28,628 bases of DNA, taken from assembly GCA_024689525.1 (NCBI GenBank), contig JAILDI010000042.1, positions 1 through 28,628 on the forward strand. The letters run 5' to 3'. The position numbers were made by a program, and so were the translations under genes. The notes under the pieces were generated by a model. The model saw nothing but the letters and a program-made list of their open reading frames with translations, searched no databases and had not been told where the DNA came from. The DNA comes from Bacteroidales bacterium. Lineage in GTDB: Bacteria; Bacteroidota; Bacteroidia; Bacteroidales; UBA932. The first letter of the stretch is position 1. The number at the start of each line of letters is the position of its first letter. Positions 5,276 through 28,628 of this stretch are shown piece after piece.

Positions 5276-7780
5276 ATGAAAAAGATTCTTTATTTTGCGG
5301 CATTCGCTGCCGTACTGTTCTCCTGCCAGAGGGAGGTAGAACCGATTGAGAAAAACAACCCCGAAGAGACTGTTTCTTCTGATGTCAGGTCCTTTACCGC
5401 CACTTTTGAAGAGGCTGAGACAAAGGCCGGTTTCACATATAATTCCAGCGCAAAGACATATTCACATTTCTGGGAGACAACAGATCAAATAGCTGTTTTC
5501 CCGATGGATAATGTTTACGACAGGTATAGATGTGCGAATATTGAAAACGGAACTTTCGTTCTTGACATCGAGGCTGCGGGGACTGCCTCCATTACTTATC
5601 CTTATAATTATGCGGTTTATCCGTATGAAGCTCTTTGGAATATTGCTACAGACGATTATCCTACTATCATTGATGCCGATGGAAAGATCGTGGTGGATAC
5701 ATATTCCTCCGCCCGCTTGACCGAGCCATACGGCTATGGAAACGTGATGGTGGCAAGGGCCGATGGTAACCAACTCAGTTTCAAGAATCTTGTGGGATGG
5801 ATTAAAATTAGTATTCAGGGAGATTTGGCAATAAGGAGTCTGTCTCTTTGGGATGAAGAAGATTATCATAATTTCATCGGACCCGTGTATGTTGAATTCG
5901 ATAGCTCTGGTGAACCTGTTATTACTCCCGGGAGTGTTGGAATGTCTCCTTGCTATGAAATAGATTTTATCAATGCAGGATTAGATCCAGTCCGTCTTTC
6001 AATGGACAGGCCAACGGATTTCTATTTTCCTTCACTTCCAGGAACCTTCGAACATGGTTTTACGGTTCATGTCAGAACGACCACTCAAGGAACGATTGAT
6101 TTCACAACAACCAAATCGATTACTGTCGAACGTAACAAGGTTATTCCTATGGCCGTGAAGACCATCACCGGTCCCTCGGCAACCCTCAAAGACGGAGGCA
6201 GCTTCAATGCTGCCATCAAGAATCTGGCTGCCAGTACGACAGGACTGTACGCGACGGCATACAATAGTAATGTTAAGCGTATCGTACTGGATACGGAAAG
6301 TAACGTAAATACAGGTACGGTGGTCAGTACTACCGGGTCAGAGAAGCCTGTATATGCAAACTTCGATTCCGTCACCGGAGTAGTGACCCTGTCCTCAGAG
6401 GCCTCCACTATTTATGCAAATGCCAGTTGTTATGATATGTTCTATCGTTTCCAGGGATTGGAGAGCACCCCTGCGATAGGGCTGAACACATCGAATGTGA
6501 CGGATATGTCATCTATGTTTGCAGATTGCACAGCATTGACGAGTATCGACCTGAGCGCATACAATACGTCCAATGTTACAAATATGGGGAATATGTTTTC
6601 CAATAGCGGCTTGACAAGCATCGATCTCACCGGCTTCAATACGAGTAAGGTTACGAATATGTCCGGAATGTTCGATCGTTGCGGTGGCCTTACCAGCCTG
6701 GATGTCAGCGGACTTGACACGCGTGAAGTTACCAATATGAGTTATATGTTCTATAATTGCGGCAACTTGACAAGTCTCACGTTGACCGGCCTGAATACTG
6801 CCAAAGTCACCAATATGAATTCAATGTTCCTTAGCTGCTCTAAGTTGTCAAGTCTCGATTTCAGCAGTTTCAACACCTCCGAGGTTACGGATATGGCTTC
6901 AATGTTCTATTTGTGCAGTGGCCTCACGGGTCTTGATCTCAGTGGCTTCAATACGGCAAAGGTGACCAATATGTCCAATATGTTCTATTATTGCTACAAC
7001 CTTGCCTCTTTGACTCTCGGCAGCAGTTTCGTTACCCCTGAAGTGACAACTATGTCCCATATGTTTTACAATTGCAACAAGTTGACAAGTTTGGCTATCA
7101 GCGGTTTCGATTTCACGAAAGTCACAACTACGGAACAGATGTTTTACGATTGCTTGAGACTATCCGGCACTATCGATCTTTCAAGCAAGAGTGCACCGGT
7201 CCTGGCCAATATGAGTAGTATGTTCCAGAATTGTTCAGCACTGACCCTGATCAAACTGCCTCAAACTACGACGGTCCTCACCAATGTGACCGGCCTGTTC
7301 CTGAATTGCTCCAGCCTTACCGGTATCGGCACTACGAACTTTAACGGAAGGCCCACATCTGTTGAGAAAATGTTCAAGGGTTGTTCAAGTCTTGTCGCCC
7401 TGACTCTGTATCCCGGCTTCAACACTACCGACAGCAATAGCTATGTATCCATCTTCTCCGGATGTACAAAGCTTAAAACCGTTGATTTCCAGGGATTGGT
7501 GATTAAGGGAAGCGGAAGCCCCGGACTTGGCGGCGGCACGGAGTTCTATGCGAAATTCAACAATGCCTTTGCCGGCGTGAGCGGCTGTAAGGTCCATAGC
7601 CTGGGTTATGTGTCAACACTTCTAAACACGGCCCCTTACAGCGCTTTTGGTACAAGCCATTCCACATATAACGAAGGTACTAAACCTACTTTTGCGGAGA
7701 CTACTTCCCACAGCGGATCGGCTCCTTCAGGATATGTGTATTTCTGCACCCAGCATAGCGATTATCTTAATGCACTTTAG
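5276..7780 (+). CDS. Surface lipoprotein with fimbrillin-like head and DUF285 (BspA-type) repeats
   Basis: An 834-residue lipoprotein. The ATG at 5276 gives a textbook type II signal with lipobox LFSC at residues 14-17; an in-frame start at 5189 would bury this signal and overlap the leader peptide, so it was not used. Residues about 40-300 resemble the Mfa/fimbrillin-like fold (FTATFEEAETKAGF, then W-x5-D-x-IAVFP). Residues about 400-735 carry tandem 24-residue DUF285/BspA-like leucine-rich repeats (pattern NTSxVTxMxxMFxxC-x-LTSLDLSGF), regular at first and degenerate later. The last 100 residues are a separate cap region. Such proteins act as cell-surface adhesins or binding proteins in Bacteroidales. 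The DNA is AT-richer than the housekeeping genes. A terminator follows at once. Confidence 0.92.
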   Translation: MKKILYFAAFAAVLFSCQREVEPIEKNNPEETVSSDVRSFTATFEEAETKAGFTYNSSAKTYSHFWETTDQIAVFPMDNVYDRYRCANIENGTFVLDIEAAGTASITYPYNYAVYPYEALWNIATDDYPTIIDADGKIVVDTYSSARLTEPYGYGNVMVARADGNQLSFKNLVGWIKISIQGDLAIRSLSLWDEEDYHNFIGPVYVEFDSSGEPVITPGSVGMSPCYEIDFINAGLDPVRLSMDRPTDFYFPSLPGTFEHGFTVHVRTTTQGTIDFTTTKSITVERNKVIPMAVKTITGPSATLKDGGSFNAAIKNLAASTTGLYATAYNSNVKRIVLDTESNVNTGTVVSTTGSEKPVYANFDSVTGVVTLSSEASTIYANASCYDMFYRFQGLESTPAIGLNTSNVTDMSSMFADCTALTSIDLSAYNTSNVTNMGNMFSNSGLTSIDLTGFNTSKVTNMSGMFDRCGGLTSLDVSGLDTREVTNMSYMFYNCGNLTSLTLTGLNTAKVTNMNSMFLSCSKLSSLDFSSFNTSEVTDMASMFYLCSGLTGLDLSGFNTAKVTNMSNMFYYCYNLASLTLGSSFVTPEVTTMSHMFYNCNKLTSLAISGFDFTKVTTTEQMFYDCLRLSGTIDLSSKSAPVLANMSSMFQNCSALTLIKLPQTTTVLTNVTGLFLNCSSLTGIGTTNFNGRPTSVEKMFKGCSSLVALTLYPGFNTTDSNSYVSIFSGCTKLKTVDFQGLVIKGSGSPGLGGGTEFYAKFNNAFAGVSGCKVHSLGYVSTLLNTAPYSAFGTSHSTYNEGTKPTFAETTSHSGSAPSGYVYFCTQHSDYLNAL
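6481..7140 (+). repeat. Tandem ~72-bp coding repeats (DUF285 units)
   Basis: About nine in-frame units of roughly 72 bp encode the 24-residue pattern with invariant VTxM-x2-MF and a following Cys. DNA identity between units is moderate, so the repeats are old at the DNA level but conserved in protein. Units continue in degenerate form to about 7480. Confidence 0.85.
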
Positions 7781-16708: not shown

Positions 16709-17521
16709 ATGAGAAAGTATTTCTTTTACTTCCTTGCGGCGGCTTTCATCACGGCGTTATTCCTGATGATCTACTTCTCGGTGCCTCCCAGGCCCCAGTC
16801 GGCGGAAAGGAATATCGTGTGGCACAGGGTGCAGATGGACGGCAGCCGCGCCGGAAGGGAGTATTCCGACAGCGGCGCCACCGCGGCGGCAGTGCAGATT
16901 TTGAAAGACTGCGAGCCGGGCCTGGCCAAGTACAAGGAGGTAATCGGCCATAGTGCAGGGGAGTATACGAACCTTCGCGATCAGGCCGACCTTCCTCTGG
17001 GCAACCTGGTGGCCGATGCGATGCGCGAGCGCGGCACCAGGGAGTTCGGCGTACGTATGGATGTGGCGGTAACCAATTACGGCGGTATCCGCATCCCTAT
17101 GCCGGCAGGTCCTATCACCGTGGGCGACATCCAGTCGATGTTCCCCTTCGACAACAAACTGGTGTACGTAAAGATCAGCGGAGCGGAACTGCAGCGCCTT
17201 ATGGAACAGCTTGCCAAGACTCAGGCCTTCCAGCCCGTGAGCGGTGTGAAAGTTAGAGTTAAGGATCACGTGCTCAAGGAGTTTACGGTAGGCGGCAAGG
17301 CGGTGAATCCCAAGAAGACGTACAATCTGTCAACCGTGGACTTCCTGCTTCAGGGAGGCGACCAGCTTTACATCGGCGCAATGGCCAGTGACATCGTTAT
17401 GTCCGACCTTACCATCCGCGACGTGATGATGGATTACGTCAAGGGCTGCGAAGCCAGGCACAAGAAGGTTACTGCATATTCCGACGGACGAATCATATTG
17501 GACAACAAAGATGAAGACTAG
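16709..17521 (+). CDS. 5'-nucleotidase C-terminal (substrate-binding) domain protein
   Basis: A 270-residue protein with an N-terminal hydrophobic signal or anchor (residues 4-25) and then only the C-terminal domain of UshA-type 5'-nucleotidases (5_nucleotid_C). Visible marks are LRDQADLPLGNLVADAMRE, the NYGGIR core, FPFDNKLVYVKISGAEL and LLQGGDQL. It has no metallophosphatase motifs. The missing catalytic half is encoded by the next gene, which overlaps it by 11 nt; thus a normally single polypeptide is split and the order of domains is reversed. The two proteins probably act together in the periplasm on nucleotides or related phosphoesters. It starts 1 nt after the ABC permease, so it is likely in that operon. 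Confidence 0.9.
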   Translation: MRKYFFYFLAAAFITALFLMIYFSVPPRPQSAERNIVWHRVQMDGSRAGREYSDSGATAAAVQILKDCEPGLAKYKEVIGHSAGEYTNLRDQADLPLGNLVADAMRERGTREFGVRMDVAVTNYGGIRIPMPAGPITVGDIQSMFPFDNKLVYVKISGAELQRLMEQLAKTQAFQPVSGVKVRVKDHVLKEFTVGGKAVNPKKTYNLSTVDFLLQGGDQLYIGAMASDIVMSDLTIRDVMMDYVKGCEARHKKVTAYSDGRIILDNKDED

Positions 17522-18386
17522 TGACAAGATAATTTTGGCGGTGCTGTCCCTGGCGGGGGTGGCGACGCTGGCCTACGGGGTTGTGAAGTACTCCCGCAAG
17601 CCGGAGGTGATCGAGCCTGTTCATCTTACCATATTGCACCTGAACGATACCCATAGCCACCTGGAGGCTATCCGTGGCGGTTCCAATGACGGCCGTGGCG
17701 GTTTGATCGAGCGTGCGCAGTATATCGATTCCGTCCGTGCGGCCGATGGCGCCGACAGCGTGCTCCTTCTGCACGCCGGCGACTTTGTGCAGGGCACAGT
17801 GTATTTCTCCGAGTTCGACGGCGCGGCTGAAATCGCCGCCCTGAACGGCCTGGGCTACGATGCCATCACCCTGGGCAATCACGAGTTCGACCGCGGCATC
17901 GAATGGCTGGACACTATGCTGGTCAAGCTGAATATGCCCGTTGTGGTTTGCAACTACGATTTCTCTCCGTTCCCCTGCGGGAAAGTTATCCAGCCGTACA
18001 CGATCGTGGAGAAGTCCGGCAAGAAAATCGGCATAATCGGCGTGCTGTGCAACCTGAAGAGTATGGTCGCAGGAAATATCGCCGACCGTATCCCGGAATA
18101 CGACGTGTTCCCCACGGTGCAGCGCTATGCGGATGAACTCCGCCGCCAGAAATGCGACCTCATCATCGCCCTTACCCACATCGGCTACGAGGAACACAGC
18201 CCCGGCGAACTCACCGACGTTGTTCTGTGCCGCAACACCCGCAACATCGACATCTTCGTGGGCGGTCACTCGCACACCTTCCTCAAGGAGATGATGATGC
18301 ATCCCAACAAGGATGGCAAACTTATCCCCGTCGTCCAGGACGGCTGCTGGGGCGCCTACGTCGGCCAGCTCGACGTGACCTTCTAG
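17511..18386 (+). CDS. 5'-nucleotidase catalytic domain protein (metallophosphatase)
   Basis: A 291-residue protein with an N-terminal membrane segment (residues 7-24, probably an uncleaved anchor or signal) followed by a calcineurin-like metallophosphatase. The metal-binding motifs are complete and in order: HLNDTHSH, GDFVQG, GNHEFDRG, ALTHIG and VGGHSHT. It ends where the C-terminal domain of UshA would begin; that domain is the separate upstream gene. The 11-nt overlap (ATGAAGACTAG) argues for coupled synthesis. It is expected to hydrolyse nucleotide phosphates outside the cytoplasm. Tandem hairpins and T-rich tracts follow the stop. Confidence 0.92.
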   Translation: MKTSDKIILAVLSLAGVATLAYGVVKYSRKPEVIEPVHLTILHLNDTHSHLEAIRGGSNDGRGGLIERAQYIDSVRAADGADSVLLLHAGDFVQGTVYFSEFDGAAEIAALNGLGYDAITLGNHEFDRGIEWLDTMLVKLNMPVVVCNYDFSPFPCGKVIQPYTIVEKSGKKIGIIGVLCNLKSMVAGNIADRIPEYDVFPTVQRYADELRRQKCDLIIALTHIGYEEHSPGELTDVVLCRNTRNIDIFVGGHSHTFLKEMMMHPNKDGKLIPVVQDGCWGAYVGQLDVTF

Positions 18387-18409
18387 GGCTTTCGCCCGTA
18401 AAATGCAAC

Positions 18410-18468
18410 TCGCTGTGTATCAGCGATTTATTGTTTTTAAATGCGGCATTTTGCCGCATTTACTTTTC
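18410..18468 (+). terminator. Tandem terminator hairpins after the split nucleotidase
   Basis: The first hairpin is TCGCTG-TGTAT-CAGCGA (18410-18426), followed by TTTATTGTTTTT. The second is a perfect 10-bp stem AAATGCGGCA/TGCCGCATTT (18439-18448 with 18452-18461), followed by ACTTTT. The T-run before the second hairpin means it could also stop transcription on the minus strand only weakly. Confidence 0.75.
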
Positions 18469-18775
18469 GTATCTCGTTGATTATCAATCACATCCATTTT
18501 ACGCTATGGTTCAAACAGTTACGCCAGGGCTTATGATCCTGAGGCCTGACGTCGAAAAATGGCCCCAACCCGTTCGCTTGACGTCGAACTCATCCTTTTA
18601 GCCACGCCTCCGGCGCGTCTAACGTCTTCAAACAAGCTCCGTCATGCTGCTGCGCAGCACCGCTCACTGCACAAACCTCCCCGCATGCCATTTTTCGCCT
18701 ATGGCACTCAGGACCATAAGCCCTGCCTGTGTAACTGTTCGAACACGTGCGGGAGGGGAGCCCCGGAGGGGCTGA

Positions 18776-20126: not shown

Positions 20127-21086
20127 ATGAGAAGAAAATTATTGGTTCTGCTTACTCTCTGCCTTTTTGCGGTGCCCGTGATGGCGCAGCAGGCGGACAG
20201 CATTACCGTAACTCCCAATGAACTGGCGGAGAGAATCATCCAGGAGGCCAAGAAGCACATCGGCACACCCTACAGGTGGGCGGCAAACGGCCCTTCAGCA
20301 TTCGACTGCTCCGGTTTTACAAGATACGTTTACAAGCAGTTCGGATACAATATTCCCCGCACATCCCGCGGTCAGGCCGAGACTCTCCGTCCCGTGCTGG
20401 GCGATATGAGCTCCCTGCAGAAGGGCGACCTGATCCTGTTCGGCAATCACTGGCACAACAGGACCATCGGCCACGTGGGCATCTTCATCGAGCTCACTGA
20501 GGACGGCCGCGATTTCACATTCATCCACAGCGCACACGGCGGCGTGCAGATATCCCGCCTGAGCGAGCAGTACTATCTGGAGCGCTTTAAGGGTGCGGTG
20601 AGGGTTATTCCCGACTTCATCGACACTGAGGAAGAGGAGAATCCCCAGCCCGTGAGGGTCGATGCCCTCGACGGCGTCACCGCGCCTCAGCTGGATACTC
20701 TCCAACTTGGCGAGAATGACCACCGCATCATTATGTTCGGCGACGGCAAATGGGTGTACGTGGAGGCCGACGGCAGAATCACCACTCCCGAGCAGAGCGA
20801 CCGCATCGTCCTTGGAAGCGACGGCAGCTGGTTCATCCTGCGCGGCACAGGCGTCCGCATTCCGTCGATCGTTGAGTCCAATGATGCGGCGCACGCTTAC
20901 GAATCCGGCGCCAGTTCAAGCTCCGGCTCCGGCGACAGCGGCCCCGTGTACTACACCGTGAAGAGCGGCGACTCCCTTGGGAAGATTGCAAATAAGTACC
21001 ACACAACGGTGAACGCCCTGTGCAGGCTTAACAATATGAGATCCACCGACATCCTGAGAGTGGGACGCCGGCTTAGAGTGAAATAG
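20127..21086 (+). CDS. NlpC/P60 peptidoglycan endopeptidase with LysM
   Basis: A 319-residue exported cell-wall hydrolase. Signal peptide 1-20 (cleavage after VMAQ). The NlpC/P60 domain at about 33-165 has the Cys-His-His triad C61 (FDCSGF), H116 (GHVGIF) and H134 (FIHSAH); it cleaves peptide cross-bridges or stems. Residues 190-240 form an unnamed module (DTLQL, RIIMFGDGKWVYV, SDGSWFIL) that also occurs in the esterase-LysM protein three genes on. A Ser/Gly-rich linker follows and then a C-terminal LysM (274-318, YYTVKSGDSLGKIANKYHTT) for glycan binding. It lies 2 nt after the YncE-like gene and 2 nt before the PQQ-like propeller. Confidence 0.94.
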   Translation: MRRKLLVLLTLCLFAVPVMAQQADSITVTPNELAERIIQEAKKHIGTPYRWAANGPSAFDCSGFTRYVYKQFGYNIPRTSRGQAETLRPVLGDMSSLQKGDLILFGNHWHNRTIGHVGIFIELTEDGRDFTFIHSAHGGVQISRLSEQYYLERFKGAVRVIPDFIDTEEEENPQPVRVDALDGVTAPQLDTLQLGENDHRIIMFGDGKWVYVEADGRITTPEQSDRIVLGSDGSWFILRGTGVRIPSIVESNDAAHAYESGASSSSGSGDSGPVYYTVKSGDSLGKIANKYHTTVNALCRLNNMRSTDILRVGRRLRVK

Positions 21087-21088
21087 TT

Positions 21089-22648
21089 ATGAAAGCATTC
21101 TATGCAGCCCTTGCGGCTCTGACAGTCCTGGCTTGCGGCAACCGCCGCGGCGGAGCGCAGGAACCCGTCATCGAGGAACCCGCAGAAAAGCCCGTTGAGC
21201 GATTGGCCGATACAACCTTCGCTTCCGTGAACAACCTCAAGTGGGAACTCGTGGTTGTGGACAGCCTTGGAAACGGCTCCCTCCAGTATCTGGACGACCC
21301 TTATGACAAGGTGGACGGCACATACACTTTCCGCGGCAACCAGAAGCGCGAAATGCCCGTGAGGGGCAAGGTGAGCGGCAATCCCACCGAAATCGTGAAG
21401 GTGTGGGAGTTCGAGACCGACAGCGACCTTACCCAAACGTCGATGGGCGTATGGCACGGCGGCACCGGCTGGACCGGTCAGCCGATGTACGTGCACTGGC
21501 CGGACTCGATGGTGGCCGCCTTCCGCGAGAAATCGCCGGGCCTCACCTCCGAGTTCAACGGCAGGGAAGTGATCTTCGGTTCGCTGTGCCGCAGGGTGTA
21601 CTTCATCAATTTCGACACCGGAAAGCCCGGCCGCAAGAGCGTGGATTCCGGAAATACCATCAAGGGGTCGGTATCGGTCGATCCCGAACTGGCCCAGGTC
21701 TATGTCGGCCACGGCGTCCCGGCGCGCGAGCCTTTCGGCGCCGTCCTCATCGACCTTTTCCAGCATAAGATTACTCATAGCTTCGGGCGCGATTCCAAGG
21801 CCTGGAGGAACTGGCAGGCTTATGACGGCTGCCCCATCGTTGCCGGCGGCTACCTGATCCGTCCCGGCGAGAATGGCACGATATACAAGTTCGCCCGCGA
21901 GCAGGGGAACCTGAAACTCGTGGCCCTGCTGCGCTTCCGCGAAAACAACCAGGCAAAGGCCGCAGGAATGGAATCGTCGATGGCGGTTTACCGCAACTAC
22001 GGCTATGTGGGCGACAACCGCGGAAATATCCTCTGCGTGAACCTGGACACGATGAAGCCGGTGTGGCACTATGACAACCACGATGACACCGACGGGTCGA
22101 TAATCGTAGAGGAAATCGACGGAGTGCCCTACCTGTACACCTGCTCCGAAATGGAGAAGCAGGGCGAGAAGGGGAGTGCATTCTTCGTGAAACTGAACGG
22201 CCTCACTGGTGAGAAACTCTGGGAGACCACCTTCCCCTGCAAGATGGCGCACGTGGGCACCAAGCACTTCGACGGCGGAATGTATTCCACTCCGCTTATG
22301 GGGCACGGCGACTGCGAGGGAATGATCATCACCAACATCTGCGACAATATCCCCGCTTTCCACGGAAAGACGGTGGCGCTGAGCAGGGAGACGGGCGAAG
22401 TCCTGTGGGAGCACGAGCTCATCCGCTACGCCTGGTCGTCGCCTGCAGGATTCTACAACGAAGAGGGCAGACTCTTCGTGTTCGTGGCCGACTGCTACGG
22501 CAACGTTTATCTGCTTGACGGCAAGACCGGCAAGCGCATCTTCACCACCAAGGTGGGCAATAACTTTGAATCTTCCCCGGTCGTAGTGGACGACTGCCTT
22601 GTGATGGGCTCAAGGGGAAGCATGATTTACAAACTTAGAATACAATAG
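21089..22648 (+). CDS. PQQ-like beta-propeller lipoprotein
   Basis: A 519-residue protein. The N-terminus is a probable lipoprotein signal (lipobox-like VLAC, Cys 16). The body shows PQQ/quinoprotein-type propeller repeats: YTFRGNQKRE, then GSVSVDPELAQVYVG, NRGNILCVNLDTMKPVW, FVKLNGLTGEKLWETTF, VALSRETGEVLWEHEL, and GNVYLLDGKTGKRIFTTKVG near the end. No PQQ-binding catalytic residues were identified, so a scaffold or binding role resembling BamB is more likely than a dehydrogenase. It ends in TAGTG, sharing one base with the GTG start of the esterase gene. Its place between two LysM proteins suggests an envelope function. Confidence 0.88.
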   Translation: MKAFYAALAALTVLACGNRRGGAQEPVIEEPAEKPVERLADTTFASVNNLKWELVVVDSLGNGSLQYLDDPYDKVDGTYTFRGNQKREMPVRGKVSGNPTEIVKVWEFETDSDLTQTSMGVWHGGTGWTGQPMYVHWPDSMVAAFREKSPGLTSEFNGREVIFGSLCRRVYFINFDTGKPGRKSVDSGNTIKGSVSVDPELAQVYVGHGVPAREPFGAVLIDLFQHKITHSFGRDSKAWRNWQAYDGCPIVAGGYLIRPGENGTIYKFAREQGNLKLVALLRFRENNQAKAAGMESSMAVYRNYGYVGDNRGNILCVNLDTMKPVWHYDNHDDTDGSIIVEEIDGVPYLYTCSEMEKQGEKGSAFFVKLNGLTGEKLWETTFPCKMAHVGTKHFDGGMYSTPLMGHGDCEGMIITNICDNIPAFHGKTVALSRETGEVLWEHELIRYAWSSPAGFYNEEGRLFVFVADCYGNVYLLDGKTGKRIFTTKVGNNFESSPVVVDDCLVMGSRGSMIYKLRIQ

Positions 22649-23913
22649 TGAGAAAAATAGTTTTAATATTATCCCTGTTCCTCGCCTCTGCAGTTATGTA
22701 CGGGCAGGAGTTCATCGCATACAGGGACTCGGTTGCCAACGGCTACAATTTCTGGCTGTCGGTGCCCGAGAATTATGATTCGCTTGAGGTCGATGTGCCA
22801 GTGGTGATTTTCCTCCACGGCAAGAGCCTCTGCGGAAACAACCTTTACCAGCTGAACCGTTACGGTACCCTGGACGCAATCAAGCGCGGACGTCAGATTC
22901 CCGCCCTTGTGATTGCGCCGCAGAATCCCGGCAACTGGTGGAATCCCCAGAGGGTGGACAACGTCCTGGAATGGGTTATGGCCCGATATAACGGGGACCG
23001 CAACCGCGTCTACGTCCTGGGAATGAGCCTGGGCGGATACGGCACCATCGACTATGTGGGAACTTATCCCGACAAGGTGGCCGCAGCCATCGGCCTTTGT
23101 GGAGGAACTACGCTCAAGGATTACGACAAACTGCGTGAGCTGCCCCTGTGGATTGTGCACGGCACTGCCGACAGGAAGGTTGGAATCGGCTGTTCCAAGA
23201 AAATTGTGGAAGGAATGCAGCAGTTGGGCGATACGCCGCTGCTCCGCTATGACTGGATGCAGGGCTACAACCACTCCGACCTGGCCCGTTTCTTCTATAT
23301 GCCCGAAACCTACGAATGGCTGTTCGCCCACAGGGCCGATGTCCGTCAGATCCAGGAGCCTTTTGCGCTTACCAATGAACTGATGAACGACGCCTATCGC
23401 GGCTGGAACAATCATAACGACGTACACGTGAGCGATCCGCCCCGCAAGGACCACCATCCCGTGAGGACGCGCCGTCACGTGCATCCGCTGGACAGCCTTA
23501 TGCTGCCCGCAGTGGACACGCTCAAGCTTCTTCCGGAGGATCTGCGTATCGTTATGTTCGGCGACGGCTGCTGGGCCTGCGTGGACAGCAACGGACTGCT
23601 TTCCGTTACGGATTCTTCTTCTGTGACTAAGGTTTTGAACGGCGACGGCACATGGGTGGCCCTCGTCCCCCGTGAGGAGCAGAGCGAGCCCGTTCCGGAG
23701 GAGACTCCCACGGAAAACGCCCAGCCCGCGGCAATAGAGACCGAGAAGGAAAAGGAGGAGGAGCCGGAAGTGCAGTACCACACGGTGCAGTCCGGCGACA
23801 CGCTGTATAAGCTGTCCCGCAAGTACGGCACCACCGTGGCGGAGCTTTGCAGGCTCAACGGCATCAAGGAGGATTCGGTGATCAAAATCGGCCAGAAACT
23901 CAGAGTAAAGTAA
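22648..23913 (+). CDS. Exported alpha/beta-hydrolase (esterase) with LysM
   Basis: A 421-residue protein starting with GTG. Signal peptide 1-20 (VMYGQ). Residues about 22-230 form an alpha/beta-hydrolase of the esterase/phospholipase type, with an oxyanion region FLHGKS, nucleophile S127 (GMSLGG), probable acid D175 (HGTADRKV) and H209 (GYNHSDLA). A His/Arg-rich linker (DHHPVRTRRHVHP) leads to the module at 290-342 (DTLKL, RIVMFGDGCWACV, NGDGTWVAL) shared with the NlpC/P60 protein. A Glu/Pro-rich linker and a C-terminal LysM (376-421) end the protein. It is a predicted periplasmic or surface esterase held to peptidoglycan; the substrate (wall acetyl ester, polysaccharide ester or lipid) is unknown. 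Confidence 0.92.
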   Translation: MRKIVLILSLFLASAVMYGQEFIAYRDSVANGYNFWLSVPENYDSLEVDVPVVIFLHGKSLCGNNLYQLNRYGTLDAIKRGRQIPALVIAPQNPGNWWNPQRVDNVLEWVMARYNGDRNRVYVLGMSLGGYGTIDYVGTYPDKVAAAIGLCGGTTLKDYDKLRELPLWIVHGTADRKVGIGCSKKIVEGMQQLGDTPLLRYDWMQGYNHSDLARFFYMPETYEWLFAHRADVRQIQEPFALTNELMNDAYRGWNNHNDVHVSDPPRKDHHPVRTRRHVHPLDSLMLPAVDTLKLLPEDLRIVMFGDGCWACVDSNGLLSVTDSSSVTKVLNGDGTWVALVPREEQSEPVPEETPTENAQPAAIETEKEKEEEPEVQYHTVQSGDTLYKLSRKYGTTVAELCRLNGIKEDSVIKIGQKLRVK

Positions 23914-23915
23914 TT

Positions 23916-24815
23916 ATGATAAAGTCAATGACAGGTTATGGGAAGGCCACTGCGGAAGTCTCCGGCGGGAGGCTCACCGTGGAAATCCGTTCCCTGAATT
24001 CCAAGACGGCCGACATCAACCTCAAGTCGCAGCTTCTTCCCCGTGACCGCGAAATCGAGATCCGGAGGATGCTGGCCGATGAACTCGTCCGCGGCACCAT
24101 CGACGTATTCCTCACTTTCGAGGCATCGGCCGACAGCAGCCCGCACGCCATCAATGCCGATGTGTTCCACGCCTACTGGCGCAGCGCCGTCAAGGCCCTG
24201 GACGCGGAAACCATCCTCACGAAGACGATGCTCAAGGACCCAGGCGTGGGAACCCTCCTCGCCAACGCGATTTTGAGAATGCCGGATGTGGTGGAGGTGA
24301 AGAAGACCGACATCATCGCCCCGGAGGACTGGCCCCGTGTGGCTTCAGCATTTGCCGATGCCGTAGCGGAATTGAACGCCTATCGCGTCCGCGAAGGCGC
24401 CGCCCTCTACCGCGACGTCACATCACGCGTGCAGAACATCCTTGATCTATATAAGGAAGTTGAGGCGCTGGAAGGGGAGAGGATCACCGCTGTGCGCGAA
24501 AAGCTTCAGAAGAACCTGGAAGACCTGTCGCAGAAACCGGACCCCGCCCGCTTCGAACAGGAGCTTATCTTCTACCTGGAGAAGTACGACATCAACGAGG
24601 AAAAAGTCCGCCTCCGCCAGCACTGCAAGTACTTCATGGAAACCATCGACACGGAACCCTGCCCCGGCAAGAAGCTTGGCTTCATCATCCAGGAAATGGG
24701 CCGCGAGATCAACACCACGGGCTCCAAAGCCAACCACGCCGGCATCCAGCAACTGGTGGTCCGCATGAAGGATGAACTGGAAAAGATCCGCGAACAATCG
24801 ATGAATATTCTTTGA
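23916..24815 (+). CDS. yicC: YicC-family endoribonuclease
   Basis: A 299-residue protein of the YicC/YloC family. Diagnostic features are the start IKSMTGYGKA, the early VEIRSLNSK, and the C-terminal DUF1732 block with FEQELIFYLEKYDINEEKVR, then KLGFIIQEMGREINTTGSKA at about 260-280. In E. coli and B. subtilis such proteins act as endoribonucleases in RNA turnover; a cytoplasmic location fits the absence of a signal. The ATG at 23916 lies 2 nt after the esterase stop, so it may be transcribed with the envelope cluster although the functions differ. The stop codon overlaps the promoter of the tRNA gene. Confidence 0.94.
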   Translation: MIKSMTGYGKATAEVSGGRLTVEIRSLNSKTADINLKSQLLPRDREIEIRRMLADELVRGTIDVFLTFEASADSSPHAINADVFHAYWRSAVKALDAETILTKTMLKDPGVGTLLANAILRMPDVVEVKKTDIIAPEDWPRVASAFADAVAELNAYRVREGAALYRDVTSRVQNILDLYKEVEALEGERITAVREKLQKNLEDLSQKPDPARFEQELIFYLEKYDINEEKVRLRQHCKYFMETIDTEPCPGKKLGFIIQEMGREINTTGSKANHAGIQQLVVRMKDELEKIREQSMNIL

Positions 24816-24845
24816 TTGTAATTTCAAAATAATTAACTACCTTTG
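24815..24845 (+). promoter_or_regulatory. Promoter of tRNA-Ser
   Basis: ATTG (24815-24818), 19-nt spacer, TACCTTTG (24838-24845). The tRNA begins 18 nt after the -7 box. Confidence 0.75.
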
Positions 24846-24862
24846 CAATCCCAATCAACCAA

Positions 24863-24950
24863 GGAAGGATGGCCGAGTGGTTGAAGGCGCCGGTCTCGAA
24901 AACCGGTATACTCCTAAAGAGTATCGGGGGTTCGAATCCCCCTTCTTCCG
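24863..24950 (+). tRNA. tRNA-Ser (anticodon CGA)
   Basis: An 88-nt class II tRNA. The acceptor GGAAGGA pairs with TTCTTCC (one G-U), discriminator G. The D arm GGCCGAG...GGTTGAAGGC is followed by the anticodon stem CCGGT/ACCGG with loop CTCGAAA; the anticodon CGA is at 24897-24899. A long variable arm (TACTCC...GAGTA) and the T arm GGGGGTTCGAATCCCCC confirm serine identity. CCA is not encoded. It has its own promoter and terminator. Confidence 0.97.
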
Positions 24951-24963
24951 CAATAAGGTAGCG

Positions 24964-24999
24964 AAAAACTGCGCCAAGCTTGCTTGAGCGCAGTTTTTT
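24964..24999 (+). terminator. Terminator of tRNA-Ser
   Basis: AAAAACTGCGC pairs with GCGCAGTTTTT, and the stem continues past a one-base bulge with CAAGC/GCTTG to a TTG loop; six T residues end the element. Confidence 0.92.
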
Positions 25000-25015
25000 G
25001 ATAGCTTAGTGCATA

Positions 25016-25090
25016 GCCCGCCGCAGGCGGGCGGGGATGCCGTAGGGCCCTCCGGGCCCGAACGAAATCCCCAATGGAAGAAGGGGGATT
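25016..25090. other. Cluster of three short palindromes including an inverted copy of the tRNA-Ser 3' end
   Basis: GCCCGCC-GCA-GGCGGGC (25016-25032) and GGGCCC-TCC-GGGCCC (25045-25059) are perfect GC hairpins without T-tracts. AATCCCC (25066-25072) pairs with GGGGATT (25084-25090). Bases 25076-25090 are the exact reverse complement of 24935-24949, the T-arm and acceptor strand of tRNA-Ser. No gene is seen in 24951-25219. Confidence 0.75.
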
Positions 25091-25102
25091 GTGCGCCGAT
25101 TT

Positions 25103-25215
25103 CCCGTGGCGACTAACCCGTTATCTATCAAGCATTTCCCACACCTTCCCCTGGTTAAAACTCACCAGGGGAGCGCTACGGAAAACGCTAGTAATCAGGC
25201 AATTAGCCGCCACAA
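25103..25215 (-). repeat. 113-nt dispersed element, copy A (downstream of recG)
   Basis: By direct comparison, 98 of 113 positions match the reverse complement of 27911-28023 without gaps. Near-terminal inverted repeats (GTGGCGACTAA and TTAGCCGCCAC, one mismatch) bound the element, and it has an internal perfect 9-bp hairpin TCCCCTGGT-N8-ACCAGGGGA. In transcript sense it begins 4 nt after the recG stop codon, with a T-run just before it. It may be a 3'-UTR structure, a small mobile element (MITE/REP-like), or both. Confidence 0.9.
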
Positions 25216-25219
25216 AAAA

Positions 25220-27349
25220 TTACGAAATCCCCGAGTAATCCTTGACGGTGTATTTGTCGCGGCGGAGTTCGGCGGCGAGGGGGGCGTTCACGGGGAACGA
25301 GAGGGTGGGATCGGCCTCCAGAACCTTGGTGGCGAAGGCACGGGCCTCGTTGAGGATGAGACCGTCCTTGGCCAGGGAGGCGATGTTCAGTTCGATGGGG
25401 AGGCCGCTCTGCTGGGTGCCTTCAAGGTCGCCGGGGCCGCGGAGCTTCATATCTTCCTCGGCAATCTCGAAGCCGTTTTCCGTGGCGCACATCAAGTCCA
25501 GCCGCTTTTGGGAATCTTTGGAAACTTTGGTTCCGCGCATCAGGATGCAGAACGAGCGTTCCGCGCCACGGCCAACGCGGCCGCGGAGCTGGTGCAACTG
25601 GCTCAGGCCGAAGCGTTCCGCGCTTTCTATCACCATTACCGACGCATTGGGCACATCGACCCCCACCTCGATTACGGTGGTGGAAACCAGGATGTTGGCC
25701 CGGCCGGCAGCGAAGGCGCTCATATTGAACTCCTTCTCCTGAGGCGTCTGTTTGCCGTGAACTATCGCTACCTTGTACTGCGGCAGCGGGAAGGCCTTCA
25801 CAATCTCCTCGTATCCCAGCTCCAGGTTCTTGTAGTCCATCTTTTCGTTCTCGAAAATCATCGGATACACGATGAATGCCTGGCGACCTTTGTCCACTTC
25901 TTCCCGAATGAAATTGTGCATCGCGTGGCGCTTGTTTTCGCCCACGCATATAGTCTGCACCGGTTTGCGGCCCGGGGGCATTTCGTCGATGACCGACACT
26001 TCCAAATCCCCGTACAGAGTCATTGCCAGGGTGCGCGGGATGGGCGTTGCCGTCATCACCAGCACGTGCGGCGGCCGGCCATCGGCCCCCTTGGACCATA
26101 GCCGGGCGCGCTGTTCAACGCCAAAGCGGTGCTGCTCGTCAATCACCGCCAGACCCAGCGCCTTGAAATTAACCGTGTCTTCAATCAGCGCGTGTGTGCC
26201 GATAATTATGCCGATGCTGCCGTCCTGAAGGCCGGCGTGTATCTTCCTGCGCGCCGCCACACCCGTAGTGCCGGTGAGAAGCGCAACCTGCACGCCCGTT
26301 GGCGCCAGATACTTTTGCACATTTGCATAGTGCTGCTGGGCAAGCACTTCCGTGGGGGCCATGATGCAGGTCTGATACCCGTTGCCGTAAGCAATTAGCG
26401 CCGACAGCACCGCCACCATAGTCTTGCCGCTACCCACATCGCCCTGGAGCAGACGGTTCATCTGGCTGCCGCTCTTAAGGTCTTTGTGTATTTCCTTAAT
26501 CACGCGCTTCTGCGCGTTCGTGAGATCATAGGGCAGGGAGTGGTAGCACTTGTTGAACGCTTCTCCCACCCCCGGCATAGGGATACCATTGGCGGCGCGG
26601 CTGCGCACGTATTTCTGCTTCAGAAGAGATAGCTGCAGCAGGAACAGTTCCTCGAACTTGAGCCTGTACGTTGCCTTGGCAAGGTTCTCCTGCGAAGTGG
26701 GATAGTGCATCTGCCTTAGCGCAAAGCTCAGCGGCACAAGCCCCTTTTCCTTGAGCACATAATCCGGCAGAGTATCCTGTAGCACGGGCAGCACTTCATT
26801 CAGCGCTGTGGACACCATCTTCAGCATCACCTTGCCTGTGATTCCGCCATTCTTGAGTTTTTCCGTAGACGGATAAATCCCCGTGAGACTGCCGCCCGCT
26901 TCCCCTTCAGGAGGGTCAACTTCCGGATGAACCATATTCATCCTGCCGTTGAACACGGAGGGCTTGCCGAAGAAAATCCAGGTGCTGTCCGGCTTGAGTT
27001 TGGCGTGCATCCACTTGATGCCCTTGAAGAACACCACTTCCATCTCCCCGGTTGCATCGGCTACTATCACGGACAGCCTGCTGGCCATATTGTACTTCAG
27101 ATGATCGGCAGGGAGCTCTACTCCATTCTTGGCATAAATGTGCACACGAAGCACTGTGGCGCGTATTTGCACATAGGCCTGGTCCGGCAGCAGATCGGCG
27201 ATGTACTGGAGGGAACTGCGGTCGATGTAGCGGAAAGGATACACGTGCAGAAGGTCTCCCACCGTGGCAATGCCAAGCTCGCTGCCAAGGAGCGCGGCCC
27301 TCTTCGGCCCCACTCCCGGGAGGTACTGTATGGCGGTGTCCATCGTCAT
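25220..27349 (-). CDS. recG: ATP-dependent DNA helicase RecG
   Basis: A protein of 709 residues (707 if the second ATG at 27343 is used), close to the 693 of E. coli RecG. It remodels stalled replication forks and Holliday junctions. The N-terminal wedge domain starts AIQYLPGVGPKRAALLGSEL. Helicase motifs are complete: LLQGDVGSGKTMVAV (Walker A), MAPTEVLAQQHY, VIDEQHRFGVEQR (DEQH box), MTATPIPRTLAMTLYGD, and the C-terminal QLHQLRGRVGRG. The frame extends upstream to 27490, but that part runs through the divergent promoter and the start of the opposite gene and is not RecG-like. The predicted -7 region lies 5 nt before the ATG at 27349. A 113-nt element follows the stop directly. Confidence 0.96.
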   Translation of the reverse strand: MTMDTAIQYLPGVGPKRAALLGSELGIATVGDLLHVYPFRYIDRSSLQYIADLLPDQAYVQIRATVLRVHIYAKNGVELPADHLKYNMASRLSVIVADATGEMEVVFFKGIKWMHAKLKPDSTWIFFGKPSVFNGRMNMVHPEVDPPEGEAGGSLTGIYPSTEKLKNGGITGKVMLKMVSTALNEVLPVLQDTLPDYVLKEKGLVPLSFALRQMHYPTSQENLAKATYRLKFEELFLLQLSLLKQKYVRSRAANGIPMPGVGEAFNKCYHSLPYDLTNAQKRVIKEIHKDLKSGSQMNRLLQGDVGSGKTMVAVLSALIAYGNGYQTCIMAPTEVLAQQHYANVQKYLAPTGVQVALLTGTTGVAARRKIHAGLQDGSIGIIIGTHALIEDTVNFKALGLAVIDEQHRFGVEQRARLWSKGADGRPPHVLVMTATPIPRTLAMTLYGDLEVSVIDEMPPGRKPVQTICVGENKRHAMHNFIREEVDKGRQAFIVYPMIFENEKMDYKNLELGYEEIVKAFPLPQYKVAIVHGKQTPQEKEFNMSAFAAGRANILVSTTVIEVGVDVPNASVMVIESAERFGLSQLHQLRGRVGRGAERSFCILMRGTKVSKDSQKRLDLMCATENGFEIAEEDMKLRGPGDLEGTQQSGLPIELNIASLAKDGLILNEARAFATKVLEADPTLSFPVNAPLAAELRRDKYTVKDYSGIS

Positions 27350-27350
27350 C

Positions 27351-27415
27351 GGCACAAATAATCCAATAGAACACAATAATACGAAAAATTCGGGAATAAT
27401 CATTAAATTTGTGCC
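27351..27415. promoter_or_regulatory. Symmetrical divergent promoter region of recG and the S24/S26 peptidase gene
   Basis: GGCACAAAT (27351-27359) and ATTTGTGCC (27407-27415) are perfect 9-bp inverted repeats. On the plus strand the right arm includes the -7 box TAAATTTG (27404-27411), 8 nt before the ATG at 27420. On the minus strand the left arm gives ATTATTTG, a weaker -7 box, 5 nt before the recG ATG at 27349. Both mRNAs should have leaders of only a few nucleotides. Confidence 0.6.
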
Positions 27416-27419
27416 CGAT

Positions 27420-27905
27420 ATGGAAAAATGGGTAGTCAGCAACGACCTTTTCTTTGCCGATGTCGTAGCGTCCCTCCAGGAAGGCCGCACCGTGACGATA
27501 CCGGTGAAGGGCTATAGTATGCTCCCCTTCATCCGCGGCGGCAAGGACCTGGTGGAGCTGGAAATCCCGTCGATGCCCCTGAAACCCTACGACATCGTCC
27601 TATTCCACGTGGGCACGGAAGCCGATGGCAAGTGGATAATGCACCGCATCCTGAAGGTCGATGGCGACAATCTCACCATCCAGGGCGACGGTGTCACCCG
27701 CGGCCGCGAACACGTGAAAGTGACGCAGGTGAAGGCCCGCGCCAAGACCATCCTCCGCGCCGGCAAAACCCCCGTCGACCCGTATACGAAGAAGCAACTC
27801 ACACTGGTGAAGATCTGGAACTTCTTCCGCCCCCTCCGCCCGTTCATCCTCAAGGCCTACAGGATGCTTCCCTGGAATCAGGGCTGGCTGAAAGAAAACC
27901 GGTAG
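27420..27905 (+). CDS. S24/S26-family signal-peptidase-like protein
   Basis: A 161-residue protein with the S26 box GYSMLP (catalytic S33), box PYDIVLFHV and WIMHRILKVDGDNLTIQGDGV. A histidine (H75, in MHRI) stands where bacterial leader peptidases have the lysine, as in the ER/archaeal-type Ser-His signal peptidases. It lacks the usual N-terminal membrane helix; the C-terminal 30 residues (VKIWNFFRPLRPFILKAYRM) are basic and amphipathic and may bind the membrane. The ATG at 27420 was chosen because an upstream in-frame extension would run through the divergent promoter. Downstream PqqD-like and ABC exporter genes suggest a role in peptide maturation and export. A 113-nt element follows its stop at 5 nt. 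Confidence 0.87.
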   Translation: MEKWVVSNDLFFADVVASLQEGRTVTIPVKGYSMLPFIRGGKDLVELEIPSMPLKPYDIVLFHVGTEADGKWIMHRILKVDGDNLTIQGDGVTRGREHVKVTQVKARAKTILRAGKTPVDPYTKKQLTLVKIWNFFRPLRPFILKAYRMLPWNQGWLKENR

Positions 27906-27910
27906 TTTTC

Positions 27911-28023
27911 TTGTGGCGGCCAAGTGTCTGATTACTAGTATTTTACGTAGAGCTCCCCTGGTGAGTTTTAACCAGGGGAAGGTATGGGAACTACTTGATA
28001 GCCAACGAGTTACCCGCCACGGG
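27911..28023 (+). repeat. 113-nt dispersed element, copy B (downstream of the S24/S26 peptidase gene)
   Basis: The inverted partner of 25103-25215, with 98 of 113 positions identical and no gaps. The central block of 30 nt containing the 9-bp hairpin is invariant. It starts 5 nt after the stop codon, preceded by TTTTC, in the same position relative to its gene as copy A is to recG. Ends carry the near-inverted repeats GTGGCGGCCAA and TTACCCGCCAC. Confidence 0.9.
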
Positions 28024-28055
28024 GACAAGCATTTTTTTCTTCCATAAAAAATTCG

Positions 28056-28062
28056 TATCTTG
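28056..28062 (+). promoter_or_regulatory. Possible -7 box for the pqqD-like gene
   Basis: TATCTTG (then C) approximates TAnnTTTG; a T-rich run at 28032-28038 is the only candidate for the -33 region. The ATG at 28085 follows by 22 nt. Confidence 0.35.
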
Positions 28063-28084
28063 CGGGGTTAAAACGAAACACACA

Positions 28085-28351
28085 ATGAAACTCAAGGAAG
28101 GATTTGTGCTCAGGACTATCTGCGGGGAGAACGTAATCTCCGGAGAAGGAACGGCTAATATCAATTTCTCCAAGCTCATCAGCTTGAACGACACTGCTGC
28201 ATACCTTTACAAGAAGGCGAAGGACATCGAGTTCACCCCGGAGACCCTTGCGGGTTTCCTCACCGAGGAATACGAGGTGGACGATGAAACCGCGCTCAAG
28301 GATGCAAAGGTGCTCTGCCAGCAGTGGATCGACGCCGGAATAGCTGAGTAA
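28085..28351 (+). CDS. PqqD-family protein (RiPP recognition element-like)
   Basis: An 88-residue protein with the PqqD fold pattern: KEGFVLRTICGENVISGEG, then INFSKLISLNDTAAYLYKKA, and a C-terminal winged-helix part FLTEEYEVDDETALKDAKVL. PqqD domains bind leader peptides of ribosomally made, modified peptides and hand them to modifying enzymes. No precursor peptide or modifying enzyme is visible in this window. Its stop overlaps the start of an ABC exporter gene (TAATG), and an S24/S26 peptidase gene lies upstream, so the three may form a peptide maturation and export set. Stand-alone PqqD proteins in Bacteroidales are common and mostly uncharacterised. Confidence 0.85.
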   Translation: MKLKEGFVLRTICGENVISGEGTANINFSKLISLNDTAAYLYKKAKDIEFTPETLAGFLTEEYEVDDETALKDAKVLCQQWIDAGIAE

Positions 28352-28628
28352 TGCTCAAGGCAGCCTGGAAATATCTGCGGTGGCTGCACCAGCACTCGGA
28401 AGGGGTGCGGGGACGCCTGGTGGCCAATGTGCTGCTGGGCATCTTGAACGTGGCGCTGAACCTGGCGTTCATCTTCGTTTGCAAGCGCATCGTGGATATT
28501 GCAACGGGCGTCGTGCCGGGCGACATCATTACCTATACGATAGTCGTTCTGGTACTCATCGCGTGCAGGCTGGGGGTATCGGCCCTCAATGTGCGCATCG
28601 AGGCTCTGGCATCGTCCAAACTCAATTT
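28351..28628 (+). CDS. ABC transporter membrane domain, N-terminal part (cut by window end)
   Basis: An open frame of 92 codons continues beyond the window. The visible part is the first transmembrane region of a type 1 exporter (ABC_membrane): KYLRWLHQHSEG, helix VANVLLGILNVALNLAFIFV, the family-typical CKRIVDIATG, a second helix ITYTIVVLVLIACRLGVSAL, and RIEALASSKLN, which probably begins the first long cytoplasmic helix. The ATP-binding domain would lie further downstream. The ATG overlaps the stop of the PqqD-like gene, indicating coupled translation and a joint function, probably export of a peptide. Confidence 0.85.
   Translation, partial: MLKAAWKYLRWLHQHSEGVRGRLVANVLLGILNVALNLAFIFVCKRIVDIATGVVPGDIITYTIVVLVLIACRLGVSALNVRIEALASSKLN

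Follow-up and report, generated by a model that had tools for sequence, protein, structure and literature searches.

A 28,628-nt stretch of the genome of a Bacteroidales bacterium (GenBank assembly GCA_024689525.1, contig JAILDI010000042.1, positions 1 to 28,628; hereafter the window) carries two inverted copies of a short hairpin-forming element, one immediately behind recG and the other behind a small gene labelled as a peptidase. This element is very probably a non-autonomous repeat similar to REPINs, copied by a divergent RAYT transposase and landing repeatedly at the 3' ends of genes. As in the REPIN and REP-RAYT systems, inverted half-elements fold as a hairpin, many copies exist and a RAYT-like gene lies alongside. 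The GT[AG]G foot of canonical REPs was missing at the start of 76 of the 108 copies collected, and since this concerns most copies the element is regarded as a variant of the REPIN kind and not as a plain member.

Copies in the Window and in Related Genomes

The first-pass annotation of the window had described matched 113-nt sequences behind the two genes, and this description was accurate. Copy A (behind recG) and copy B were identical at 98 of 113 positions without a gap, and began 4 and 5 nt past the adjoining stop codons, TAA and TAG. The boundaries given by covariance models (Table 1) place the gaps to the stops at about 6 and 7 nt. The inverted arms measured 117 nt, were 86% complementary and were spaced by 2687 nt. 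In the gene sense each copy folded as one long hairpin (z scores of −7.65 and −3.39), and 0 and 1 of 200 shuffles, respectively, were equally stable. The invariant 9-bp apical hairpin that had also been reported (TCCCCTGGT/ACCAGGGGA) was present in both. Concerning the gene labels, recG was recognized by its Pfam wedge and domain 3, but the S24/S26 peptidase stayed unconfirmed, with no Pfam match at 1e-3. A third, diverged copy, absent from the earlier account, was located 11 nt past the stop of a phosphoesterase gene. It was matched on the minus strand at E 5.3e-5 by covariance model R1, built from 8 sequences without it, and at E 5e-15 by model R2, whose training set included it; copies A and B belonged to the training sets of both models.

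A RecG search of relatives (best 80 of 207 considered) pointed to two rumen Bacteroidales metagenome-assembled genomes (L001 and L002), with 95% amino-acid identity to the window RecG and 662 of 709 residues identical to each other, and to numerous less similar ones. Records named Candidatus Cryptobacteroides were present among the recG relatives. Copies found by plain DNA search were matched end to end but diverged. A scan with a hand-made motif of the ends picked up coding sequence for the most part and was replaced by covariance models. Model R1 gave matches at E ≤ 1 in seven of the eight genomes scanned (61 in G001, 78 in G002, 24 in G005, 32 in G007, 11 in G011, 4 in G069, 53 in G070 and none in G020), counted on both strands with at most 150 candidates scored; among the matches listed, all were full length. 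The window and stretches of six genomes provided 108 distinct copies at E ≤ 0.01, with lengths of 106 nt (62 copies), 108 nt (26), 105 nt (19) and 107 nt (1). Related rumen and gut Bacteroidales genomes carry up to dozens of copies.

Anatomy and Covariation

Seventy of the 108 copies aligned in 108 columns, with gaps near the loop only. The unit is symmetric: an 8-bp outer stem encloses two mirrored 25-nt palindromic boxes, and these flank an apical hairpin. The outer stem (positions 1–8 with the last 8) was paired in 92.1% of cells, with both-sided changes in every pair. The apical stem (columns 36–50 with 59–73) was paired in 88.5% of cells, with both-sided changes in 15 of 15 pairs; a simple scan gave 8–21 pairs per copy. 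Jointly, 89.8% of cells of the two stems were paired, compared to 52.4% after shuffling. The covariation score was 0.912, against 0.231 ± 0.013 in shuffles (0 of 500 as high) and 0.169–0.214 in slid registers. Among the nine first copies, collected by DNA similarity before the covariance search, 10 of the 19 predicted pairs already varied on both sides.

The box is conserved in sequence, not in pairing. It follows the pattern TAAnnnnYTGAnnnTCARnnnnTTA, and over 216 arms A10 was present in 99%, T17 in 98% and A25 in 91%. Local hairpins within the box were paired at 0.626, exactly the value expected from column composition (0.626), so that a four-stem cloverleaf is not claimed. Pairing of the two boxes across a long hairpin was likewise rejected, the excess being about zero at positions 9–33, where covariation was absent both across the element and within the arm. 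On entry into an arm, one reading frame meets its first stop at position 9, a TAA, in 104 of the 216 arms, and another frame meets a TGA first, at position 17, in 93 of the 216.

The 23 copies of G002, all 106 nt long, had a mean identity of 0.92 in the outer stem, 0.96 in the apical stem and 0.55 in the box, where single positions were as low as 0.23. Over 238 kb of this genome, 17 apical stems were perfect and 6 had one to three mismatches, followed by a gap before the background; three called elements were at background level of apical pairing, and apical stems in successive stages of decay were not seen. The near-invariance of the stems and the missing decay series suggest that the stems of each copy are under selection, or that copies turn over fast.

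A Y1 Transposase Beside the Element

The Pfam family Y1_Tnp (PF01797) was detected in six of the eight genomes scanned, and not in G020 (no elements) nor in G069 (four matches). A tree of the 23 Y1 proteins, built after their flanks had been seen, separated 13 of them, called type A, from 10 others with a branch support of 1.0. R1 elements were present at all 13 type A loci and at none of the 10 other loci at E < 0.05 (Fisher 8.7e-7), although one of the latter, L160, showed a match at E 0.086. These flanking copies were all outside the R1 training set, and some loci were cut by contig ends. The element was on both sides of the transposase at 6 of the 13 loci. On the 3' side it was positioned within −44 and +16 nt of the stop codon of the transposase gene (8 of 8), and on the 5' side it was located 58–184 nt upstream of the first ATG (11 loci). 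Outer-stem types appear to go partly with transposase sub-clades: L142, L152 and L158 had GT[CT]GAAT, L141, L144 and L150 had GTRAAA, and L140 and L153 had GTGTC/CTGGC.

The type A proteins are 273–335 amino acids (aa) long. Residues H60, H62 and Y120 were invariant in the 13 sequences, within the motifs [DN]HxH and YxxNN, the latter continuing as NNP in nine. Pfam Y1_Tnp matched them at E 2.5e-6 to 4e-4; five of the six scanned were above 23 bits, and L153 scored 20.9. Homologues at E ≤ 1e-20 numbered 709, and a few of the 120 listed were named transposase or RayT. By sequence, the type A relation to ISDra2 transposases in the PDB was weak (E 0.005). The AlphaFold model of a type A protein (311 residues, mean predicted local distance difference test score of 90.2) had as its best PDB match 4er8, a REP transposase bound to a REP hairpin (E 4.1e-5; template modelling score of 0.68 on the target and 0.38 on the query), followed by the ISDra2 and IS608 TnpA. 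The 4er8 alignment covers 154 columns of a 311-residue model, which therefore has an extra C-terminal helical half.

Co-occurrence was evaluated in 119 genomes of the family, taken from their handles as the same set in both scans. The type A profile matched 42 genomes at E ≤ 1e-10, 14 of them at E < 1e-50, and the element was matched in 33 genomes at E ≤ 1e-3, for a total of 577 strand matches. All 14 genomes with a type A match at E < 1e-50 had 11–33 element matches. The remaining 105 had at least 10 in 5 cases, 1–9 in 14 and none in 86 (Fisher 2e-14; cut-offs chosen after the data were seen, both strands counted, at most 33 candidates scored, and G001, source of both queries, included in the 14). 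An order-wide sample of 198 Bacteroidales genomes gave a match in G001 alone, for the element (E ≤ 1e-4; weak matches lost with 19 candidates scored per genome) as for the transposase (E ≤ 1e-30). Several type A matches can occur in one genome, nine in G052 and four in G137, some being fragments or containing stops; these may represent distinct types with separate elements.

Other Y1/RAYT-like groups, without the present element, occurred in the same genomes (L143, L146, L148, L155, L159; L149, L154, L160; L147, L157; also L008 3784–4728). They may own the other hairpin families.

Placement at Gene Ends and Turnover

Among the 108 copies, 97 were between two genes called by a simple gene caller (the 11 others were left out): 55 between convergent, 35 between co-directional and 7 between divergent genes, the last including at least one gene-call error (window 27913). 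The remaining gene pairs of these stretches with a spacing below 600 nt comprised 41 convergent, 280 co-directional and 71 divergent ones. The median distance to a stop codon was 5 nt; it was 10 nt or less in 60 of 90 cases, overlaps counted, and 30 nt or less in 77. Between co-directional genes the stop side was the nearer one in 29 of 35. A 389-kb set, mostly contiguous, contained 20 elements. They were present in 8 of the 51 convergent and 8 of the 185 co-directional pairs, and in none of the 51 divergent ones (convergent versus rest, Fisher 0.0024); one element (L119 170) lacked a called gene on one flank, and the transposase gene of L132 escaped the caller.

Twenty-five gene-end segments of G002 were sought in G001, and 21 were found. 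The 22 orthologous places examined (second matches of the already placed segments L271 and L273 left out) comprised 5 occupied sites, 14 vacant sites, defined by no R2 match at E ≤ 0.05, and 3 at contig ends. As the alignments read, the convergent stops abut directly in G001 at the vacant site L122:10144, compared to L258. At another vacant site, L123:3268 compared to L265, the neighbouring gene appears to use the TAA of the element as its stop. The box identity at the five shared sites was 0.44–0.66, compared to 0.529 ± 0.067 between unrelated copies, and exceeded the 95th percentile at one of the five. All five differed in the apical stem, and two also in outer-stem subfamily. Concerted evolution of the stems at old shared sites was not supported, with boxes as unlike as those of unrelated copies and two pairs of different subfamilies. 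A possible older exception was seen at one site, where L075, L055, L038 and L062 seem to have a related sequence in common that L047 and L034 lack. Shared sites holding unlike copies imply that the same gene ends were hit repeatedly; targeting and survival would both fit. With 14 of 19 testable G002-occupied ends vacant in a related species, the element contributes strongly to change at the ends of operons.

A Model for the Spread of the Element

We propose that the transposase recognizes the folded single strand, with the outer stem acting as the foot and the hairpins as the structure; the box would perhaps be bound by the extra C-terminal helical domain. The enzyme would cut and rejoin the element as single-stranded DNA and insert it without target duplication. 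Insertions would survive mostly at gene 3' ends because neither gene nor promoter is broken there, and the TAA and TGA that the element often brings would soften hits on last codons. After insertion, the hairpin may serve as a two-way barrier at 3' ends. One suggestion of the first-pass annotation, a small mobile element targeting gene ends, is in this way retained for its mobility and its location, on the basis of copy number, association with the transposase, orthologous sites that are occupied or vacant, and stop-codon proximity; the copies may target gene ends or survive there. A stronger version, a RAYT-driven family that specifically targets stops or gene 3' ends, brings stops and constitutes an interchangeable two-way gene-end module whose inverted pairs flip genes, seems rather unlikely.

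Several observations weigh against the REPIN-like interpretation. The data show neither a movement event nor an excised circle nor cleavage by the enzyme, and the transposase evidence comes from the genomes of relatives, not from the source genome of the window. The NCBIfam model REP_Tyr_transpos (NF047646) scored 19–44 bits on six type A proteins, below its cut-off of 80. It gave 41 bits on L148, 27 bits on L149 and nothing on L157, so that two of the three other-clade proteins scanned match the RAYT model no worse than type A does. At their 5' ends 32 of the 108 copies begin with GTGG and none with GTAG (GTGG at both ends in 29, at one end at least in 38); the others start with CTGG, GTGA, GTAA, GTCG or similar. 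L145 has GTRAAA stems and groups with the GTCGAAT set (support 0.88). The genomes G111, G122, G161, G181 and G159 are element-rich and lack a type A match at E < 1e-50, for which our guess is assembly incompleteness. The model on which the covariation alignment leans already contained 18 of the 23 pairs, a bias towards pairing. The placement statistics of the 97 copies come from stretches chosen for holding elements, and the 389-kb set is small, was in part chosen earlier for its elements and includes three weak ones (L277). Finally, the vacant sites compare different species (662 of 709 identical RecG residues), not strains.

Alternative Explanations

The first-pass annotation had suggested a functional RNA structure among its possibilities, and a host element of the 3' untranslated region, such as a bidirectional terminator, an mRNA stabilizer or a source of small RNA, duplicated and kept by selection on its RNA structure, has to be weighed. 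The strong covariation of the stems fits such an element, as do the abutment on stop codons, the preference for convergent pairs, and the situation in G002, where the stems are almost invariant while box positions vary and no decay series exists in 238 kb. However, the T-tract terminator signature was present on 36 of 216 element strands only, and none was found at 24950–28080, the stretch holding the focal pair. The GC-rich hairpin with a T tract that characterizes intrinsic terminators is not a general feature of the element; three signatures lay inside the third copy. No Rfam family matched the copies. The 14 vacant ends among 19 and the five shared sites with different apical stems also argue against a host RNA, which moreover leaves the transposase association unexplained. 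RNA structure as the main identity of the element is unsupported, because the covariation fits a hairpin recognized by a transposase too, and we consider this explanation improbable.

A classical miniature inverted-repeat transposable element (MITE), with terminal inverted repeats on which a DDE transposase acts, as in the IS5-related MITEs described in Porphyromonas gingivalis (PMC4596501), would also be short, intergenic, of high copy number and ended by inverted repeats. Such a mover should be betrayed by target-site duplications, but none of 107 flank pairs had a direct repeat of at least 4 nt, and 3-nt repeats were found in 2 (1.6 expected). Compensatory changes deep within the element and the association with an HUH/Y1 clade (no search for DDE genes was made) further disagree with it. 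The printed IS5-type ends of the P. gingivalis MITEs are unlike those of the present element. This origin is very improbable.

Integron-like attC sites share with the element imperfect folding palindromes just past stops and a variable sequence with conserved structure, but dispersed copies in either gene orientation behind genes like recG, no arrays of one-gene cassettes and a Y1 enzyme instead of a tyrosine integrase (no integrase search was made) leave this possibility close to nil. A single old local duplication without a wider family, which could be thought of when an exact search with the 20-nt core found no match in genome or viral contig collections, is refuted by the 108 copies collected and by the 577 strand matches spread over 33 of the 119 family genomes; BLASTN likewise gave no match among plasmids and phages. 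An element with no other copies and no structural conservation, the outcome against which the first-pass annotation had cautioned, is not what was found.

Comparison with Known REP and REPIN Systems

The REPIN-like interpretation can be compared with described systems. The REPINs of Pseudomonas and Escherichia coli consist of two inverted REPs whose 16-nt ends are conserved and whose spacer shows compensatory changes, and they are linked to a RAYT gene (PMC3116915, PMC8049555). The doublets treated there measure 71 and 110 bp, and the RAYT is single-copy in its genome (PMC8049555). The present element is similarly non-autonomous and dyad-symmetric, folds as a hairpin, and has many copies, conserved ends, stem compensation and a RAYT link. 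It differs by ends made of an 8-bp covarying stem without GTAG, by an almost fixed length of 105–108 nt, by a variable 25-nt palindromic box in each arm with an apical hairpin among the best conserved parts, and by the several type A transposases that may occur per genome. Its position a few nucleotides from stops also contrasts with that of REPINs, which are reported to be distributed at random in extragenic space.

Closer in host is TnpA_Y1 subclass 2.6 (RAYT group 5) of Bacteroidetes, flanked by "atypical secondary structures" without GT[AG]G, with copies elsewhere in the genome (PMC6006769). The phylum, the RAYT-like gene and the non-canonical flanking structures are the same, and as the anatomy is not described in the text this may be the same element. 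By description the proteins are set apart, with motifs NH[LIV]H and YIH[QN]NP and a median of 179 aa, against [DN]HxH, YxxNN and 273–335 aa in type A. The "double foot" long REPs of subclass 2.4 combine a 5' GT[AG]G with the complementary C[TC]AC at the opposite end (PMC6006769); the 29 copies with GTGG at both ends and the related tyrosine motif YIxNNP resemble them, whereas the other copies start differently and the present unit has boxes and a nearly fixed length. The GTAG/CGTC REPs, single palindromes of 20–40 bp with GTAG or CGTC tags, favour unidirectional and convergent spacers near open reading frame (ORF) ends and can supply a stop codon (PMC3733652). The present element shares these three properties without being a single 20–40 bp palindrome. 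Beyond the brief mention of "atypical" Bacteroidetes structures (PMC6006769), no description of such elements in Bacteroidales was found in the literature searched, which excluded supplementary tables and most subscription journals. The present data provide an anatomy for RAYT-associated structures in a gut and rumen Bacteroidales lineage. Covarying stems opposed to a sequence-conserved box, with apparently several type A transposases per genome, make the recognition rules testable.

A Reversed recG Segment and Neighbouring Repeats

The inverted pair had also been thought able to mediate inversion of the segment between its copies, an idea that receives circumstantial support from L001. Window 20957–25090 was collinear with L001 1–4113, and window 25221–27905, with recG and its neighbour, matched L001 7129–4446 in reverse; the segment is thus reversed relative to the tRNA-Ser side. 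L002 retains the right-hand order of the window. Both ends of the reversed block coincide with element sites (window 25091–25220 and 27906–28051, corresponding to L001 4113–4446 and 7129–7472), but in L001 these sites are occupied by other hairpin repeats and the left junction alone is visible, the contig ending 345 nt past the recG match. The homologue of the window 28085 gene starts another contig. On this evidence an inversion in L001 would be the simplest reading, although a mis-assembly is possible, and the elements are possibly also a source of small inversions.

A second hairpin repeat, TTCATCCAGGAT / ATCCTGGATGAA, was observed in G001, often with a 51-nt spacing (L001 4363 and 4414; L165 3772 and 3823; L170 5862 and 5913; L184 7203 and 7225; L251 1697, 1719 and 1770). 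It is located 3' of the peptidase-labelled gene in L001, and in L251 at a gene end that carries a 106-nt element in G002. The repeat GAAATCCCCAATGGAAGAAGGGGGATT adjoins copy A (window 25064–25090) and forms three tandem copies with 66-nt spacing in L001 (4158, 4224, 4290). Hairpins built on CTCCCGAAGGTGC / GTACCTTCAGGAG are present in L002 at the site of copy B, after the peptidase-labelled gene. Behind recG, the L002 contig breaks at 7128–7234 within what by eye appears to be a GTAAAATGG-type element.

Other Features of the Window

The coordinates of the three copies and of the adjoining genes are given in Table 1.

Table 1. Element copies, their parts and the adjoining genes in the window.
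Feature	Position	Strand	Basis
Element copy A, 108 nt, 3' of recG	25106..25213	-	Covariance matches, inverted pair
Copy A, outer stem 5' strand GTGGCGGC	25206..25213	-	Alignment columns 1-8, covarying
Copy A, left box, palindromic (pattern in text)	25181..25205	-	Positions 9-33
Copy A, apical hairpin TCCCCTGGT/ACCAGGGGA	25147..25172	-	Fold and covariation
Copy A, right box	25114..25138	-	Box pattern of arms
Copy A, outer stem 3' strand	25106..25113	-	Covariation
Element copy B, 108 nt, 3' of peptidase-labelled gene	27913..28020	+	Inverted pair, covariance matches
Copy B, outer stem 5' strand	27913..27920	+	Covariation
Copy B, left box	27921..27945	+	Box pattern of arms
Copy B, apical hairpin	27954..27979	+	Fold and covariation
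Copy B, right box	27988..28012	+	Box pattern of arms
Copy B, outer stem 3' strand	28013..28020	+	Covariation
Third copy, 105 nt, other subfamily, outer stem GTAAAATG/CATTTTAC	18398..18502	-	R1 and R2 matches
recG, stop adjoins copy A	25220..27349	-	Pfam RecG_wedge, RecG_dom3_C
161-aa gene, stop adjoins copy B	27420..27905	+	Open frame; no Pfam match at E 1e-3
Calcineurin-like phosphoesterase gene, stop adjoins third copy	17511..18386	+	Pfam PF00149

At window 27420–28628 a PqqD-like gene (PF05402) and the start of a long ORF that by eye looks membrane-bound come after the peptidase-labelled gene. Our guess is that this region is possibly part of a cluster for a ribosomally synthesized and post-translationally modified peptide. 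Six tandem 78-nt repeats, with 62–73% identity to the reference copy, are located at window 6530–6994 inside an ORF of 863 aa.

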